Source: Alkalimarinus coralli
GTDB taxonomy: Bacteria; Pseudomonadota; Gammaproteobacteria; Pseudomonadales; Oleiphilaceae
Length of the DNA: 64,000 nt
Direction: 5' to 3'
Assembly (NCBI RefSeq): GCF_023650515.1
Contig: NZ_CP096016.1
Location: 3,102,001-3,166,000, forward strand
The position numbers and the translations under genes are program-made. The notes below the pieces were generated by a model that ran no database searches, was not told the origin of the DNA, and worked only from the letters and a program-made list of their open reading frames with translations. How positions within the stretch are numbered: the stretch's first letter is position 1; each line of letters begins with the position of its first letter. Below, piece after piece: positions 17,447-25,006 of this stretch.

Positions 17447-18736
17447 ATGAAAGTACTTCTTATCGGCAGCGGTGGACGCGAACATGCTTTAGCGTGGAAA
17501 GCAGCCCAAGCTGACTATGTTGACACCGTTTATGTTGCTCCGGGCAATGCTGGCACCGCATTGGAACCTAAGCTGGAAAACGTAAACATTGATGTAATGG
17601 ATCTTGAAGGTCTGGCGAAATTTGCTGAAGAGCAGCAAATAGGCCTGACGATTGTTGGCCCAGAGGCACCGTTGGTTGCAGGTGTCGTAGACCTCTTCAA
17701 CGAACGAGGCCTGCGTATTTTTGGTCCCTCAGCGGGCGCGGCCCAGCTTGAAGGTTCGAAGGCATTTACCAAAGACTTTTTAGCGCGACACAAGATACCA
17801 ACAGGTGCGTACGAAAACTTTACTGACATTGATCAGGCACTGGGTTACGTTCGTGAAAAAGGTGCGCCTATTGTCGTAAAGGCCGATGGCCTTGCAGCAG
17901 GTAAAGGCGTCATCGTCGCTATGACGCTTGAAGAAGCAGAAGCAGCCGTTAAAGATATGCTCGCCGGCAATAAATTCGGCGATGCAGGCCACCGAGTGGT
18001 TATTGAAGAGTTTTTAGAAGGTGAGGAAGCCAGCTTCATTGTTATGGTAGACGGTAAAAATGTCTTAGCCATGGCAACAAGTCAGGATCACAAACGCGTA
18101 GGCGATGGCGATACAGGCCCTAATACAGGCGGAATGGGTGCTTATTCACCGGCCCCTGTTGTCACCGCAGAAATACATCAGCGGATTATGGATGAAGTGA
18201 TCTACCCCACGGTCGAAGGCATGGCAGCGGAAGGCAATGACTATACAGGCTTTCTTTATGCCGGTTTAATGATCGCGGCAGATGGCACCCCAAAAGTCAT
18301 TGAGTACAACTGTCGATTTGGCGACCCTGAAACTCAACCCATCATGTTACGCATGAAGTCAGACCTTGTTGACCTTTGCCAAGCCGCTGTAGATGGCAAG
18401 CTAAATGAAAAGAGTTCGGACTGGGATGAGCGAGCATCCGTCGGCGTTGTACTGGCAGCAGGGGGTTACCCCGATAGCTACAACAAGGGCGACATTATCA
18501 CCGGGCTACCTGAGACAGAAGTAGACGGTGAAAAAGTATTCCATGCTGGCACAAAGGACGCAAACGGCCAGGTCATCACTAACGGCGGGCGGGTACTTTG
18601 CGCGTCAGCGCTCGGAGAGTCTGTTACCGAAGCACAGCAGAGAGCCTATAAGCTAACCAAGCAGATCAGCTGGGATGGCGTATTCTACCGCAACGATATC
18701 GCATACCGCGCTATCGAGAGAGAGAACAGCCAGTAG
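17447..18736 (+). CDS. purD: phosphoribosylamine-glycine ligase (GAR synthetase)
   Basis: PurD joins glycine to phosphoribosylamine in purine synthesis. From ATG 17447 (AGGACAAG upstream) the product is 429 aa, the normal length. Motifs are MKVLLIGSGGREHALAWK, the ATP-grasp segments VVKADGLAAGKGVIVA and EEFLEGEEASFI, TGGMGAYSPAP, and EYNCRFGDPETQ (metal binding). The in-frame extension to 17411 lies inside the hairpin and is unlikely to be used. Confidence 0.96.
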   Translation: MKVLLIGSGGREHALAWKAAQADYVDTVYVAPGNAGTALEPKLENVNIDVMDLEGLAKFAEEQQIGLTIVGPEAPLVAGVVDLFNERGLRIFGPSAGAAQLEGSKAFTKDFLARHKIPTGAYENFTDIDQALGYVREKGAPIVVKADGLAAGKGVIVAMTLEEAEAAVKDMLAGNKFGDAGHRVVIEEFLEGEEASFIVMVDGKNVLAMATSQDHKRVGDGDTGPNTGGMGAYSPAPVVTAEIHQRIMDEVIYPTVEGMAAEGNDYTGFLYAGLMIAADGTPKVIEYNCRFGDPETQPIMLRMKSDLVDLCQAAVDGKLNEKSSDWDERASVGVVLAAGGYPDSYNKGDIITGLPETEVDGEKVFHAGTKDANGQVITNGGRVLCASALGESVTEAQQRAYKLTKQISWDGVFYRNDIAYRAIERENSQ

Positions 18737-18740
18737 CTAG

Positions 18741-18782
18741 GTACAAGGTACAAGGTACAAGGTACAAGGTACAAGGTACAAG
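18741..18782. repeat. 7-bp tandem repeat, six perfect copies
   Basis: Six perfect head-to-tail GTACAAG units start four bases after the purD stop and end just before the terminator. A perfect short array like this is prone to slippage and is a likely length polymorphism between strains. Confidence 0.95.
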
Positions 18783-18786
18783 ATGA

Positions 18787-18825
18787 GGGTGGATTAAGCA
18801 TTTAGGCTGATCCACCCTTTTTTTT
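18787..18825 (+). terminator. rho-independent terminator of purD
   Basis: GGGTGGAT (18787-18794) pairs with ATCCACCC (18810-18817), followed at once by eight T residues. It closes the purH-purD transcription unit. Confidence 0.9.
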
Positions 18826-18972
18826 GCCACGAATGAAATTTATACCATATGCTCTTTTAGTTTCCGTTCCTCCACAGGAGTTCAAGTTTTGTATATCCTA
18901 GCAGGGGTTGAATTCACTTGATTCTGCTTCGCTGCATCACGACTACAAGGGCACTGTCGATTCTGAGAGGGT

Positions 18973-19014
18973 TCGTAGCCTTGATGGAAGGAGGCACGAC
19001 TGGAATCAGGGTTT
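18973..19014 (+). repeat. 42-bp intergenic repeat, left copy
   Basis: This 42-bp stretch (starting TCGTAGCCTTGATGGAAGG and ending GGAATCAGGGTTT) is repeated in inverted orientation at 23708-23749 with 41 of 42 positions identical. Shorter relatives lie at 18917-18949 and on both sides of the IS element at 22250-23642. The two near-identical copies bracket the LRAT/TerB island and the IS. Confidence 0.85.
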
Positions 19015-19147
19015 ATCTGTTCGACCATAAGTCCCCCCCCCTAGATTTTGGCTAAGGTAGCGGAACCTATGAAGGCAGAAATCGGCTAAGAGACGACCTC
19101 CTTTAGAAGCGTGAGATTAGCTCAGGGATAACCTCGCTTTGGAGCAA

Positions 19148-19185
19148 AAGATAGCTATAAAGGGCTCGATAAGCCTTTAGCTATG
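19148..19185 (-). terminator. terminator-like hairpin after the LRAT gene
   Basis: On the minus strand an ATAGCTAAAGG...CCTTTATAGCTAT imperfect hairpin is followed by TCTTTTGC. It begins a few bases past the stop of the LRAT-domain gene and is the best terminator candidate for it. Confidence 0.45.
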
Positions 19186-19190
19186 GGTGG

Positions 19191-20234
19191 TTAAAAATCA
19201 AAAGAATCATCAGACTCCATAAAGTTATCAAAATCTTGAAAGTCAGCGAATTCAAGAACAGTACCGAATTGATTATTTATCTGTTCAAGAGAATCAGTAA
19301 AGCGTTTTGTATCAAGTGTTGTTAACGATTCGTCCAATGAATTGAATGCGCTTGAAAATATAGCTGCTCTGCTCTCAAAATGGGTAGATAAATATTCTTC
19401 AAGCTGCGCTCTACTTTTTTGAATCTCGGGTATTAGGCGTTGACATAATTGATTTATTTCATGCCTCCTTTCTTTTGCCTCTTGCACGACAGGGCTATCC
19501 CCAAGCGCCAAAAGGCCAGATTGTTGTAATAAGTTACCAACCACAAGACCTATACTAGAACCAATAAGAAACCCCGCTACGGGAATAGGTATAGCAGCCT
19601 GACCTAACGCACCATAAAAAGACATTGATGCCGTATTAATAACTGTATGACTTATATCCTCGAAAAGTTTTTCTTTATTGATATCACCCTTCAAATAGCC
19701 AACCAGAGATATTCGTGTCTGTTCAAGAGCTACAATATAAGTGCCTCTGGGCAAAACCGCTCGGCTGACTTGATGGACCTGATTGCTTATATGAAGGTTA
19801 TCTATACACCAGTTTGCAAAGTGTTCACAATTATTGAAGACAAGATTATACTGCGACTCTTCAAGTTTGGACTTTGCTCTTTCGACAATTTGTTCAGGTG
19901 AAAACTGAACATGATTATGATACTGAATTGTATATTCCCGCCCATCGCAGAACTCGCCTATACTCACTTTCTCAACTGGCCCACCCCGCATCTCATTCCC
20001 AAATCCCGAGTAATGGATTACCTGTTCATCGCCCACATATACACCATGATGCGTGTAGCCAAGACGAGGGGTTACAAGGTGGGATCCAATTTTGGGTAGA
20101 TTATAATGTCTATTAATTTGGTCGGTCAATGAATGGTCTTCAATTACCGTACTTTGAAAAACCTGATCTAGATATTTCCGTGTAAGAAACTCAGAAACCT
20201 CTTTTTCTGGTAAATTTAATTCTAAATTATTCAA
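19191..20234 (-). CDS. LRAT-domain protein with hydrophobic membrane segment
   Basis: This 347-aa protein has three parts. Residues about 45-150 form an LRAT (lecithin retinol acyltransferase/H-REV107) domain of the NlpC/P60 superfamily: GYTHHGVYVGDEQVIHYSG supplies the catalytic His region, and NNCEHFANWCID holds the NCEHF motif with the catalytic Cys. Residues about 205-245 are glycine-rich and hydrophobic (YGALGQAAIPIPVAGFLIG, then SSIGLVVGNLL), suggesting membrane insertion. A helical C-terminus ends in an acidic Asp/Phe tail. LRAT proteins act as thioesterases, acyltransferases or phospholipases, so activity on membrane lipids is plausible. It is divergent from the TerB-like gene. Function is not established. 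Confidence 0.75.
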   Translation of the reverse strand: MNNLELNLPEKEVSEFLTRKYLDQVFQSTVIEDHSLTDQINRHYNLPKIGSHLVTPRLGYTHHGVYVGDEQVIHYSGFGNEMRGGPVEKVSIGEFCDGREYTIQYHNHVQFSPEQIVERAKSKLEESQYNLVFNNCEHFANWCIDNLHISNQVHQVSRAVLPRGTYIVALEQTRISLVGYLKGDINKEKLFEDISHTVINTASMSFYGALGQAAIPIPVAGFLIGSSIGLVVGNLLQQSGLLALGDSPVVQEAKERRHEINQLCQRLIPEIQKSRAQLEEYLSTHFESRAAIFSSAFNSLDESLTTLDTKRFTDSLEQINNQFGTVLEFADFQDFDNFMESDDSFDF

Positions 20235-20403
20235 ACCGGAAATCCTTTAATTCGTTTTTATAGAAACTTAAGAATGATAGCCTTCGAACCGGCATTAAGG
20301 TACCCGATTTTGCAATCTGTTACATAAATATACGACTGTTTCATTGTTAAATTTGGGTTAGATGACTAGGCTGAAATCCTTACTTAAATTACAAGGATAT
20401 TGC

Positions 20404-20796
20404 ATGTTTATTCACAATTTAACTCCATCACAGCAAAGTATTTTTCTAGGAATGGCAATAGAACTGATAGAAATAGATGGTCAAGTTGATGATCGGGAGT
20501 TCAGCCTGGTTGAAGAATTAAAATCCCTTTGCTCGGTTGAGAGCGAGCCGGTGAAAATCACTTCAAATGATGATTTAGCCACACTGTTTCTCGATCAAAA
20601 ATCTCGAGTTTCGCTTTTGCTGGAATTAATCAGTATTGCATGCGTAGATGAAAATTACGATGAAAAAGAAAAAAATTACATTTCCCAAGTAGCAGGAATG
20701 ATCAAGGTTCCAGAGGTTTTGCTAGAAGACTTGGAATCTTGGGCACAAAGACAAATGACCCTAATGCAAGAAGCTATAATTTTCATGGAGAACTAA
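20404..20796 (+). CDS. TerB-like helical protein
   Basis: From ATG 20404 (AAGGA 8 bp upstream) this is a 130-aa acidic, all-helical protein. It has the two-repeat pattern seen in TerB-like domains: FLGMAIELIEIDGQVDDREF early and LLELISIACVDENYDEKEK later, each a hydrophobic helix followed by an acidic loop that could bind metal. TerB domains occur in tellurite-resistance and membrane-associated stress complexes. The next gene starts 3 bp after its stop, so the two are co-expressed. Family membership is by pattern only. Confidence 0.6.
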   Translation: MFIHNLTPSQQSIFLGMAIELIEIDGQVDDREFSLVEELKSLCSVESEPVKITSNDDLATLFLDQKSRVSLLLELISIACVDENYDEKEKNYISQVAGMIKVPEVLLEDLESWAQRQMTLMQEAIIFMEN

Positions 20797-20799
20797 GAC

Positions 20800-21804
20800 A
20801 TGCCTTTACCCCTTATTTTGGCAGGTGCAGCTTTGGCAACTGGTGTTTATGGAGTAAAAAAAGGTGTCGATGCCAAATCTGATCACGACTCAGCGAAACA
20901 CTGGAATGAACGAGCAGAAGAGCTTTACGATAACGCTAAAACAAAACTAGAGTCAAAACGCGAGAAAGCCCAAACGCAAATGAAAACGCTTGGGAAAACA
21001 AAGTTTGGCCTCTACAAGAACTCAATTGTTCCTTTTGTTGAAACTTTCTCACTAATTAAAGCTATTGATTTTGATGATGAGTCTCTAATAGATAGTTTTG
21101 GACTACCCAATATAGACCGTGCTGAAATGCTCGCGATGGAGGAGTCAGTCTTCGAAATAAAGCAAGCTGTGACTGGAGGGATGACTGCCCTCGGAAGCGG
21201 CGGTTTAGCAGGCCTTGCTGCTTATGGCGGAGTTGGAACATTTGGAGCCGCATCGACAGGAACCGCCATTGGTAGCTTAAGTGGAGCAGCAGCAACAAAT
21301 GCTACTCTGGCTTGGCTAGGCGGAGGATCTCTCGCTAGCGGAGGATTTGGAATGGCCGGCGGAATGGCCGTTTTAGGTGGGGTTGTTGCCGGCCCAGTTC
21401 TAGCAGTCGGCGGAATGATGCTAGCATCAAAGGCTGAAGCAGCAAAACATGATGCATACGCAAATTTTGATAAAGCTGAACTAGCAGCTGAAGAGATGAA
21501 GTCTGCAGGGGTTGCCACAGACGGTATTGGCCGCAGGTTCCGCGAGATAAACAAAATTCTTGTTGGTCTAAATGAGCGATTTATACCACTGCTAAATTCT
21601 TTACAGGATTTAGTTGAAGAAAATAAGGACTATCAAATGTACTCCGAAGAAAACAAGAAGCTTGTTTTCTTGGCCGCATCCACAGCAAAAGTGCTTAAAA
21701 CTATTATGGAATCGCCAATTATTGATAAAAAAGGCTCGTTAACTAAGGAGTCTCGTAAAGCCGTCACTTTAGGAAAAACGACCTTATCAAAAAGCGACAG
21801 CTGA
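20800..21804 (+). CDS. glycine-zipper membrane protein
   Basis: This 334-aa protein has an N-terminal hydrophobic segment (LPLILAGAALATGVYGVKKG), a charged coiled-coil-like stretch (about 30-70), a long Gly/Ala-rich hydrophobic core (about 125-215) with phrases such as ATNATLAWLGGGSLASGG and GMAGGMAVLGGVVAGP, and a helical C-terminus. Repeated small-residue spacing is typical of glycine zippers, which pack into membrane helices or pores. It is 3 bp after the TerB-like gene. I do not recognise a characterised homologue. A pore-forming or membrane-remodelling role is an inference. Confidence 0.65.
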   Translation: MPLPLILAGAALATGVYGVKKGVDAKSDHDSAKHWNERAEELYDNAKTKLESKREKAQTQMKTLGKTKFGLYKNSIVPFVETFSLIKAIDFDDESLIDSFGLPNIDRAEMLAMEESVFEIKQAVTGGMTALGSGGLAGLAAYGGVGTFGAASTGTAIGSLSGAAATNATLAWLGGGSLASGGFGMAGGMAVLGGVVAGPVLAVGGMMLASKAEAAKHDAYANFDKAELAAEEMKSAGVATDGIGRRFREINKILVGLNERFIPLLNSLQDLVEENKDYQMYSEENKKLVFLAASTAKVLKTIMESPIIDKKGSLTKESRKAVTLGKTTLSKSDS

Positions 21805-21855
21805 ATATTTTCAAACAAAATATAGATCAGGGCCTATGTATTGGCCCTTCACTTT

Positions 21856-22146
21856 ATGACAGATAAGCCTCAAAAAATCACTACGGTATCTTTAGAACCA
21901 TTTCCATGCACACAGTGTGGAAAATGCTGCAAAAATGTTGATCTATCTGACCTGACTTCATGGTTGGATAGAGGGGATGGCATTTGTAAGCACCTAAATT
22001 GTGCCACTAACATTTGTAATGTCTATGAGAATAGACCTGACATCTGCCAAATAGACAAACAATATCAAACTTATTATTCTGAAATTTACTCGTGGGAAGA
22101 GTTTACAAACTTGAACCTTGAGATTTGTGAAAAATTACCAAGTTAA
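21856..22146 (+). CDS. YkgJ-type cysteine-cluster protein
   Basis: From ATG 21856 this is a 96-aa protein with eight Cys residues in the pattern CTQCGKCCKN...CKHL...CNVYENRPDIC, matching the YkgJ/Fe-S or zinc cluster family. The reaction carried out by the family is not settled. No good ribosome-binding site precedes it. A short AGGGCC-N8-GGCCCT hairpin (21829-21848) lies between it and the glycine-zipper gene and may weaken or end that transcript. It is the last intact gene of the island. Confidence 0.8.
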   Translation: MTDKPQKITTVSLEPFPCTQCGKCCKNVDLSDLTSWLDRGDGICKHLNCATNICNVYENRPDICQIDKQYQTYYSEIYSWEEFTNLNLEICEKLPS

Positions 22147-22249
22147 AAACAGTCTGGGCAGACTCAATGGAGGATCTACACCTAATTTATAAGTGTCTCT
22201 TTAGAGTCTTTTGCGGACGTTGGGATGTCAGTAGCCTTGATGAAGCGTA

Positions 22250-23642
22250 GAGGCTGTGAAAGTATTAACAAGCAAGAGATTCTTTGCCTTCAAGGCGAAC
22301 TCGAAGCGAATCTGGCGCCATTACAACGCCCCTTTTAATTATTATCTGTAGAAACAGGTAATAATTATAAGCCTTTAAATATAGCTCTGAGCTGAGTTCC
22401 TTCTTTTAAGGCGAAACAGAGCTTTATTTTTTATCTCCTCAAGGAGCCTGTCGAACCCCAACACATTAAGTGTACGTGTGAAGTTATAGCATAACGCCAT
22501 TAAACTAAACTCAGCCGCTACCTTCTCTTGGCCTCTTAGCAGGAAGTGGCTCCAACCTGCTTTCCCTTTTTCCCCTTACCCCCTGTTTTAGGCTTGGGAA
22601 CATAAGGTGTTATCTTATCTTTTACACACTTAGCAATATGCGCCCCGCTGTAATAGCCCGCATCAGCAAGCACTTCTAACTCATCTGAATTCAGTATTTT
22701 CTTTGCTTTTAGCGACATTGGGTGCAATTGTTTAAGATCGTTTGGCTCCGTTGTGACTTCTTCGCAAACAATCAAGTGATGCTTGCTATCTACTGCTATC
22801 TGTACGCTGTAGCCGGATACCTTTTGAGTTCCTTTGTTCAGTAAACGGGCATCTTTGTCTGTACTGCTCTCTTGTGTTCTTTTAGATTTTTCTAACCTTT
22901 TTAATTCGCTCTCTTTATCTTGTTTTTCTTTTTTCCAGTCTTCGAGTTGCTGAAGCACTTTTTCCAGTTCAATATCATTGGGCTTGTTTTCTTCTTCCTT
23001 TTCCTGCGCATCTTGCTGATCTAGCTCGTTCTGCCATTGCTCGATATGCGCCTCTAGCTTTTTGAGCTTCTTCTTGAGACCTGTGGTGGTCGTAAAGCTC
23101 TTGCGGCTCGCGCTTCCTTTAAAGAAACTGCCGTCAATAGCAATGCACTGGCCTTCAAACAACGAAAGTTTCTTGCAGAATAAAATAAACTCTTTATGAG
23201 TCTCCCGAATCGCACGCCGGTTTTGGCTGCGAAAATTAGCGATCGTCTTATAGCTTGGCTTAAGCCCTTGAACTAACCACATCACCTCTATATTGCAGTG
23301 GCACTCTTGTTCTAACCGACGACTCAACTTAATGCGGTTTAGATATCCGTAGAGGTAAAGCTTGAGTAACGCACCGGGAGGGTAGGCAGGCTGCCCGCTA
23401 TTAACCTTGTTCTCTAAGGTATGTTGATAACCGAGCTTTCCTAAGTCTAAACATTCAACATAGGCATCAAGGGCTCTGATGGGATGACTCTCATGCACGT
23501 AGTCATCCATATGGCTCGGAAACAAATCCCCTTGATCGCGGGAGTGTGTTTTCTTGTATTGTCTTCCCATTTTCTTATATCTTCGAAGTCGTTAGGCGAC
23601 GATATTATACAGCGGGGAGCCTATGGATGCTTTCACAGCCTC
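22250..23642 (-). mobile_element. IS1182-type insertion sequence, internally deleted
   Basis: Inverted terminal sequences GAGGCTGTGAAAG (22250-22262) and CTTTCACAGCCTC (23630-23642) bound a 1393-bp element that contains a broken IS1182-type transposase on the minus strand. The flanks (GTAGCCTTGATGAAGC left, GCAGCGGAATCAGGGG right) join into one copy of the local palindromic repeat, so the element inserted inside such a repeat. The ends look intact, so it could still be moved by a transposase from elsewhere. Confidence 0.75.
22375..23570 (-). pseudogene. IS1182-family transposase, deleted and frameshifted
   Basis: The open part (22536-23570, 344 aa) starts MGRQYKKTHSRDQGDLFP and has the first two catalytic Asp regions (CIAIDGSFFKG and LEVLADAGYYSG). 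After PYVPKPKTGGKGKKGKQVG it runs into ATSC and a stop. In another frame the DNA immediately continues as WSHFLLRGQEKVAAEF...LMALCYNFTRTLNVLG down to a TAA at 22375-22377, which is the normal C-terminus of this family. About 100 codons, including the catalytic Glu, have therefore been lost at a deletion near 22555 that also shifted the frame. The gene cannot make active transposase. Confidence 0.85.
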
Positions 23643-23707
23643 GCAGCGGAATCAGGGGAGAGATGTTCATCTTCAAACCTAAAGATACCAACATTAGCTA
23701 TCAACCA

Positions 23708-23749
23708 AAACCCTGATTCCAGTCGTGCCTCCTTGCATCAAGGCTACGA
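23708..23749 (-). repeat. 42-bp intergenic repeat, right copy
   Basis: This is the inverted partner of 18973-19014, differing at one of 42 positions. It lies between the IS and gltS and marks the right edge of the island. The flanking sequence of the two copies is not similar, so the match is confined to the repeat itself. Confidence 0.85.
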
Positions 23750-23800
23750 TTTTAGACTCTTTTCGAAATATCCACTTTTTAGCAATTGAACAAACGGTTC

Positions 23801-25006
23801 CTAAAAACCTCCTTCCATCATCGGTAACGCTAAGAAGAACTTGAGTATCAAAGCATTAGCGATATCAATAAAAAATGCACCGACTAACGGAACAACCAGA
23901 AAAGCTTTGGGTGATGGCCCAAACCGGCTAGTAATCGCATTCATATTACCAATCGCAACCGGAGTTGCCCCAAGCCCTAACCCGGCAAAGCCCGACGCCA
24001 TTACCGCTGCGTCATAGTTTCGCCCCATAACGCGAAACACCACCCACATGGTAAACAGCGTAATAAGTGTCACTTGAATGCACATAACGATAACCGCTGA
24101 CAGAACCCCTTCAGACAGCGCCGCAAATTGCATGGAGATTAAACTCATTACGAGGAATATCTGTAGGCTCAGATTATTTGCAACACTGACCGCTCGCTCG
24201 CTAATCTTAAACTTGACCAGTTCCGCACCATTGGTAATACAGATAGCCATCAACATCGCGGTCAGAAAGCCAGGCAACAGCATTCCCGTACTAAAAAGAA
24301 ACCGGTTAACCAAGTCACCGACTTGAATACAGATAGCAATAATCAAAACCGTTTTCAGAATATCCTCAAGTTTGGTGGGGTGATACTGCTCTTTCACTTC
24401 AGCCACTGTTTTGATGGTATCAAGCTCGCCCTCCGGCTTGAGTCCGTTCACTTTAATCAACCGGCCAGCAATAGGCCCGCCAATGATGCCCCCCATAATT
24501 AAGCCAAAGGTCGCAAAGGTAATACCGAGCGCTTCTGCGTGCTCAAGGCCCGCTTTTGCAGCCTCTGCCCCCCACGCGATAGCCGTACCATGCCCCCCGG
24601 CTAACGAAATACTGCCTATAAAAAGCCCGTAGGCCGGATTGCCGCCGAACGATGTAGCCACCAGCACCCCGGTCGCATTTTGCAAAAACAGAAACATCAT
24701 AGAAATAGCGAGCAGGATCGCCAATGCTTTTCCACCCGCCAGCAGCAACCTGAACTTGGCTGTTAAACCTACTGTTGTGAAAAAGACCAGCAGTAGAATG
24801 TCCCTCAGTCTCATATCGAACTCAACCGTAAGCCCCCAATGACTGCTTACAAGTGTGATAACCAGACTGAACAGCAACCCTCCGGTTACCGCGTCGGGAA
24901 TATTATTTCTTTTGAGTAAAGGAATAACACGATTAATAAATGCCCCGGCAAACACGGCAATGATGCTGAGTATAAGAAAGTCGATTCCCTCGATGCGGTA
25001 ACTCAT
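23801..25006 (-). CDS. gltS: sodium/glutamate symporter GltS
   Basis: GltS imports glutamate with sodium across the inner membrane. The 401-aa product matches the family length and shows about ten or more hydrophobic helices in two repeated halves. Each half carries a glycine-rich re-entrant loop: SISLAGGHGTAIAWG in the first and GFAGLGLGATPVAIGN in the second, both diagnostic of GltS. A terminator separates it from the upstream flavoprotein gene, so it probably has its own promoter in a short region near 25007-25031. Confidence 0.93.
   Translation of the reverse strand: MSYRIEGIDFLILSIIAVFAGAFINRVIPLLKRNNIPDAVTGGLLFSLVITLVSSHWGLTVEFDMRLRDILLLVFFTTVGLTAKFRLLLAGGKALAILLAISMMFLFLQNATGVLVATSFGGNPAYGLFIGSISLAGGHGTAIAWGAEAAKAGLEHAEALGITFATFGLIMGGIIGGPIAGRLIKVNGLKPEGELDTIKTVAEVKEQYHPTKLEDILKTVLIIAICIQVGDLVNRFLFSTGMLLPGFLTAMLMAICITNGAELVKFKISERAVSVANNLSLQIFLVMSLISMQFAALSEGVLSAVIVMCIQVTLITLFTMWVVFRVMGRNYDAAVMASGFAGLGLGATPVAIGNMNAITSRFGPSPKAFLVVPLVGAFFIDIANALILKFFLALPMMEGGF

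Follow-up and report, generated by a model that had tools for sequence, protein, structure and literature searches.

An LRAT domain on the tail of a conserved glycine-zipper module in Alkalimarinus coralli: a candidate membrane-anchored anti-phage system

Background

What could hold together, in one compact block of a bacterial chromosome, the genes for an LRAT-domain protein, a TerB-like protein, a glycine-zipper protein and a small cysteine-cluster protein? The question is raised by a stretch of 64,000 nucleotides from Alkalimarinus coralli (the window, by which we mean the whole stretch that was analysed), for which a sequence-only reading had proposed a membrane-acting defence or stress-response module. 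The explanation that we favour, at slightly better than even odds and on grounds of sequence, modelled structure and analogy, is a membrane-anchored, chromosomal and probably abortive anti-phage module whose LRAT head would attack phospholipids. No LRAT phospholipase is so far known to us as an anti-phage effector.

Organization of the locus

An ORF check of the window found all four open reading frames (ORFs) intact and at the positions given by the sequence-only reading. The LRAT gene, whose product is here called B, is transcribed divergently from the TerB, glycine-zipper (GZ) and cysteine-cluster (Cys) genes, and GZ starts 3 bp past the TerB stop codon. The locus comprises:

19191..20234, minus strand: B protein, LRAT head plus module tail, 347 aa, TTG start (ORF, Pfam, PADLOC, alignment, model)
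19785..20096, minus strand: LRAT/PLAAT-like domain of B, aa 47-150, with His62, His74 and Cys136 (Pfam, fold and sequence match)
19194..19757, minus strand: shared tail of B, aa 160-347, with helical hairpin, coiled coil and C-terminal FDxFM-like motif (alignment, model)
19524..19598, minus strand: hydrophobic segment in the B tail, aa 213-237 (sequence)
20235..20403, no strand: divergent intergenic region between B and TerB, a probable promoter region (sequence)
20404..20796, plus strand: TerB-like protein, 130 aa (Pfam; ORF open from 20362; start placed by homologues)
20800..21804, plus strand: glycine-zipper protein GZ, 334 aa, matching PDC-M09A (PADLOC, alignment, model)
21172..21444, plus strand: conserved Gly-rich tip of GZ, aa 125-215, including ASTGTAI and ATNATLAWLGGGSLA (alignment, model)
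21841..22146, plus strand: CxxCxxCC cysteine-cluster protein, likely ATG at 21856 (Pfam, homologues)

The block is flanked by purD and gltS (gene names assigned by eye), the aligned ends of which lie about 100 bp apart in a relative, G004. On the 3' side of the Cys gene is a transposase ORF of 344 aa (22536-23570, minus strand), which by eye looks IS1182-like and probably truncated.

The purD-gltS junction (window 18736-23801) is variable within the genus, measuring about 100 bp in G004, 1.2 kb in G001, 3.2 kb in G003 and 14 kb in G002, where the insert has urease-like genes. The cargo looks metabolic in two of the four relatives, and the notion of a defence hotspot at this site was dropped, the four holding nothing, no listed ORF or metabolic-looking genes. 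Short tandem AGGTACA repeats directly follow purD (18739-18787), and a dispersed 42-nt repeat occurs as inverted copies at 18973-19014 and 23708-23749; a 301-bp query around the first copy gave 68 matches in the genome, some of which form arrays with a spacing of about 114 or 140 bp, and we read these as a REP-like family.

Linkage and distribution in relatives

A genome collection of 84,980 species was scanned with the GZ alignment, two GZ peptide patterns picking out 259 relatives. The best 80 of these were kept, so that linkage is measured here on the nearest relatives. Removal of the near-duplicates L050 and L055 and addition of L088 gave a set of 79 distinct loci, over whose ORFs of at least 50 aa we ran iterated profiles of the four window proteins; the B profile settled on a region that corresponds to aa 112-344 in the window protein, for the most part tail. 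Within 3 kb of GZ and on its strand, 74 of the 79 loci have a tail-bearing B gene, 51 a Cys gene and 28 a TerB gene, and 22 have all four genes together. Within the same distance no TerB gene was found in 51 of the 79 loci and no Cys gene in 28, some loci being incomplete; where at least 3 kb was available on each side (54 loci), the counts were 53 for tail-bearing B, 39 for Cys, 20 for TerB and 17 for all four. By sequence, then, the four genes form a conserved module, in which tail and GZ are the conserved pair, often accompanied by Cys and TerB. The proposal of a conserved module is thereby borne out, with a different composition: the sequence-only reading had placed LRAT, TerB and GZ at its core, a role that belongs to the B tail and GZ, and had treated the Cys gene as a mere follower, which its frequency near GZ contradicts.

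Phyla could be named for 76 of 78 loci: Pseudomonadota account for 33, Bacillota for 25 and Campylobacterota for 9, with the remainder in seven others. The module genes of L054 (a Fibrobacter bin) and L055 (an Erysipelotrichaceae bin) are identical in size and score, and one of the two bins is therefore probably contaminated. GZ is sparse, being present in 7 of 369 genomes of the class, that of A. coralli included; its linkage was less clear in this class-wide scan, where three of the other six GZ genomes were examined and had tail-bearing B in one, Cys in one and neither in one.

The complete A. coralli genome (4.83 Mb) holds one PDC-M09A match, one LRAT match, four TerB matches and four CxxCxxCC matches. 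Because each family has so few matches in the genome, and because the association recurs in many phyla, it exceeds what chance would give. That the genes were thrown together, or are decaying, beside an insertion sequence and have no joint function in this strain we consider very improbable: a transposase ORF does adjoin the module, and B is inverted in the window, unlike in the 74 loci with tail-bearing B near GZ, but the four ORFs are intact, B retains its catalytic residues and the same set of genes is found in many phyla.

The LRAT-headed B protein

B matches the LRAT family of Pfam at aa 47-144 (3.7e-23) and the PADLOC-DB model PDC-M09B at aa 179-292 (2.9e-11), the latter match being confined to the tail (model positions 331-446 of 480), with the LRAT head outside the matched part of the model; B therefore joins an LRAT head to a tail of the PDC-M09B type. 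In the predicted structure (pLDDT 80, pTM 0.44), the LRAT domain is succeeded by a helical hairpin, then by a long coiled coil and finally by a short helix at the C-terminus. Its five best fold matches in the PDB are domains of human HRASLS2, AdPLA, PLAAT3, PLAAT4 and HRASLS3, at E-values of 2e-6 to 2e-5 and TM-scores by target of 0.71-0.82; HRASLS2, matched by fold at 2.3e-6, also matches B by sequence (3.9e-6). In the alignment, His62 and His74 fall on the PLAAT histidines and Cys136 on the cysteine of the NCEHF motif; all three are kept in each of the six full-length LRAT-headed proteins. By modelled fold and alignment, the head would be a thiol enzyme of the permuted papain-like kind, as are the human PLAATs, in which the two histidines aligned with His62 and His74 are catalytic residues; the sequence-only reading of the LRAT domain as lipid-enzyme-like is supported.

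A study of PLAATs describes the role of C113 of PLAAT3, the aligned NCEHF cysteine, and organelle deformation by these proteins as requiring both LRAT domain activity and a transmembrane segment (PMC9338259). Permuted NlpC/P60 enzymes are considered to act at membranes on lipid-like substrates (PMC3142127). B has the PLAAT order of an enzyme domain followed by a hydrophobic segment. Since PLAATs need both elements and B presents them in the same order, we infer by analogy that B may be a membrane-held phospholipase-like effector. Hydrophobic segments had been expected in the partner proteins, and they are present in the B tail (aa 213-237) as well as in GZ (aa 1-19 and 183-210).

Exchangeable heads on a common tail

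Among the 74 B proteins scanned, 36 match PDC-M09B and six, including that of the window, carry an LRAT head recognized by Pfam; a further protein, L010, truncated at a contig end, has the same head, bringing the LRAT loci to seven. LRAT thus stands as a part of the module, as had been proposed, but as one head among several; moreover, of five LRAT loci that the class scan found outside the module, three were examined and had no GZ, TerB or Cys gene among the neighbours listed. A PD-(D/E)xK-like motif is frequent among the 60 long B proteins, and its E, D and QxK are invariant in 23 aligned nuclease-like heads, which were selected from the 60 for the apparent motif. A profile of these heads found no relative among solved structures, with one match at E 0.1, so that the PD-(D/E)xK assignment is by motif alone. 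A loose regular expression for this motif matched 54 of the 60 and was judged too permissive to serve as a count. One B protein has a GIY-YIG head (Pfam 4.6e-4; L020 by motif), the head of L085 appears HNH-like by eye, and two of the 74 match BnzB of the Bunzi system (L031, 4.6e-125; L058, 1e-116), the L031 protein being encoded 3.7 kb from GZ. Five Selenomonadales-type B proteins have a head of no recognized family. Eight of the 74 are headless, with 129 to 164 aa and a partial tail, and the head is therefore not always needed.

The tail of the window protein shares 52% identity with the tails of L008 (Allochromatium) and L012, both nuclease-like-headed, and 37-49% with those of other LRAT-headed proteins. 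The head of the window protein resembles LRAT heads only and has no similarity to those of L008 and L012. In a tail tree of 65 rows, the six complete LRAT tails form one clade (90/94) whose sister is L008 plus L012 (86/94), placed among nuclease-like-headed Pseudomonadota. The tree was rooted at its midpoint for drawing only, and the nesting and direction of a swap are therefore read indirectly; the pattern suggests that an LRAT head replaced a nuclease-like one on a single occasion and that the new form then spread, reaching among others a Sulfurimonas genome bin. On the GZ tree, four changes are required to place the LRAT loci, although the AU test does not reject their grouping as one clade (p 0.21). 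The distances of GZ and of the tail are correlated (Mantel r 0.683; none of 1000 permutations equally high), which shared descent alone could explain; the four changes count against a simple co-inheritance of GZ with LRAT-headed B.

Nuclease-like and lipase-like heads that can be swapped on a common part resemble polymorphic toxins, and B might be an inter-bacterial toxin of that kind, or the toxin of a toxin-antitoxin-like set, with TerB and Cys as immunity proteins or chaperones. We hold this to be quite improbable. In B the head varies at the N-terminus and the constant part lies at the C-terminus, opposite to the usual arrangement of polymorphic toxins; inspection by eye of the ORFs listed for five LRAT loci recognized no secretion gene; and the Cys and TerB genes are conserved where they occur.

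The glycine-zipper protein and its smaller partners

GZ matches PDC-M09A of PADLOC-DB over nearly its full length (aa 37-300, 6.2e-29) and has no Pfam match at E 1; 34 of the 36 GZ proteins scanned match PDC-M09A. Twenty-six glycines fall within aa 125-215, the hydrophobic Gly-rich tip that is also the most strongly conserved part of the protein. The model (pLDDT 74) shows a long bundle of helices, in which most of the tip falls below pLDDT 50. A fold search of the PDB gave a best E-value of 0.05, nothing below 1e-3 and mostly long helical proteins, for which reason we claim no pore family for GZ; the pore-like character attributed to it by the sequence-only reading finds no footing in these matches or in the low-confidence tip. 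In a profile search of the PDB, GZ gave weak matches to CCM3/PDCD10 and to viral fusion proteins (7e-4 to 1), which we take for a likeness between coiled coils.

GZ might nevertheless itself be the membrane-disrupting effector, acting as an alpha-helical pore or by insertion, with the head of B, LRAT included, as an accessory or activator. The headless B genes (8/74) still adjoin GZ, five of the eight together with a Cys gene, conservation of GZ peaks in the hydrophobic tip, and the assembled cytolysin A pore is among its weak fold matches (rank 28, E 0.31, probability 0.66). The fold matches are non-significant, however, the tip is mostly modelled at low confidence, and 66 of the 74 B proteins retain a large head; we regard GZ as the effector as unlikely.

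The TerB-like ORF (20362-20796) matches Pfam TerB at 1.4e-7, and its homologues suggest the ATG at 20404 as the true start. The Cys ORF matches the Pfam family CxxCxxCC at 4.3e-6, and 49 of the 52 Cys proteins, among them that of the window, have an intact motif. Neither protein of the window matched any PADLOC model at E 1.

Surroundings of related loci

Defence genes near the relatives' loci, as the defence proposal would have it, were found in number: at 1e-10, flanking proteins (142) matched 83 PADLOC models and control proteins (138) matched 10, with no WYL among the latter, figures which count models and not proteins since the models are redundant. For the flank set, 150 of 414 proteins were sampled and 8 of these omitted for size; for the control set, 142 of 214 proteins were sampled, from 20 other stretches in 14 genomes that carry the module, and 4 large proteins omitted. 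The 25 models listed out of the 83 include WYL (10 proteins), JukA, HEC-06 and SspE (2 each), LmuB and AbiEi (1 each) and others. A family search seeded with L011:5810-6856, called WYL by eye, placed a WYL-type protein in 24 of the 79 loci, in 16 of them at most 300 bp from a module gene and co-directional with it. Upstream of the LRAT modules of L011 (Marinobacterium) and L026, related proteins that look HEPN-like by eye (L011:6802-7551 and L026:6761-7411) are encoded beside the WYL-type gene, and no further match to this family occurred in the ORF set searched.

Neither phage records nor viral contigs gave a GZ match, and 5 of 72,556 plasmid records contained one, so that mobility is weakly supported. 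In two of the three plasmid loci viewed, a short tail and a Cys gene adjoin GZ, and in one of these a SIR2 gene and genes of toxin-antitoxin type lie no more than several kb away.

The module might alternatively serve membrane stress or repair, remodelling damaged membrane in the manner of dynamin-like or Psp-like proteins and having no part in immunity. The B tail (LeoB, 1.8e-3, PADLOC-DB) and GZ give weak LeoB/LeoBC matches, and TerB and LRAT domains are known in stress or lipid-remodelling proteins. This we judge improbable given that no GTPase match occurs among the window proteins, that nuclease-like, GIY-YIG and HNH-like heads are ill-suited to repair, that the relatives' loci have defence-gene surroundings and that the distribution within the class is sparse.

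Discussion

For the favoured anti-phage module, we envisage a complex at the inner membrane between GZ, whose model is a bundle of helices bearing a hydrophobic Gly-rich tip, and the tail of B, with its modelled hairpin and coiled coil. The TerB and Cys proteins may restrain this complex or supply it with a sense of ions or redox state. Phage infection or membrane perturbation would release the head; an LRAT head would then cleave inner-membrane phospholipids, depolarising or lysing the infected cell and probably protecting against phage, while in relatives a nuclease-like head would cut nucleic acid instead. Counting against this reading are the headless B proteins, the loci in which no TerB or Cys gene was found near GZ, the looser linkage in the class-wide scan, the distance of L031's BnzB-headed protein from GZ, the four changes in the GZ tree, the weak support for mobility and the metabolic-looking cargo at purD-gltS in two of four relatives. 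More tentatively, the module could exemplify a widespread class of membrane-anchored immunity, in which a core of GZ and tail senses membrane attack and fires whichever head it bears, the LRAT form being the bacterial counterpart of membrane rupture by PLAATs.

Were this true, a candidate of two proteins would grow into a module that counts up to four genes and spans at least ten phyla, nuclease-like and lipase-like heads would be interchangeable on a single membrane core, and LRAT/PLAAT enzymes would gain a bacterial immune setting. The natural loci in which the same core bears different heads make the idea directly testable.

Comparison with known systems

Human PLAAT/HRASLS (H-REV107) proteins share with B the fold (TM-score by target 0.80), the histidine and cysteine residues and the succession of LRAT domain and hydrophobic segment; they differ in that the tail of B is a bacterial coiled-coil part common to nuclease-like proteins. 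The LeoA/B/C dynamins resemble the window proteins through weak profile matches in helical, hydrophobic regions, but no GTPase domain was found in B or GZ. Our literature search found no paper combining LRAT domain, bacteria and phage defense, and none linking LRAT to defence among the matches listed.

TerB is named among the domains of Bunzi (BnzA/BnzB) in one source (PMC10952713) and occurs in both systems, and two relatives (L031 and L058) have a BnzB-like head on the same type of tail. The window differs in having no BnzB match; nor did the PADLOC library, which may hold no BnzA model, give a BnzA match in the four window proteins or in 18 TerB proteins. Dionysus, a reported defence system with a TerB homologue (van den Berg et al. 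2025 preprint; PMC12926258), could overlap with the four-gene module.

The closest likeness is to PDC-M09, a phage-defence candidate of PADLOC whose name was not found in the literature searched; PDC systems are termed unpublished candidates in one source (PMC11811056). GZ corresponds to M09A nearly throughout and the B tail to the tail region of M09B. The A and B genes of the window are close together, with one gene between them and on opposite strands; the differences are the LRAT head of B and the presence of TerB and Cys proteins outside the PADLOC models. The sequence-only reading had called the system undescribed, which does not hold for GZ and the B tail, already known as an unpublished candidate of which the present module is a variant. 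What is new is the LRAT effector head, the conserved partners TerB and Cys, and the swapping of heads.
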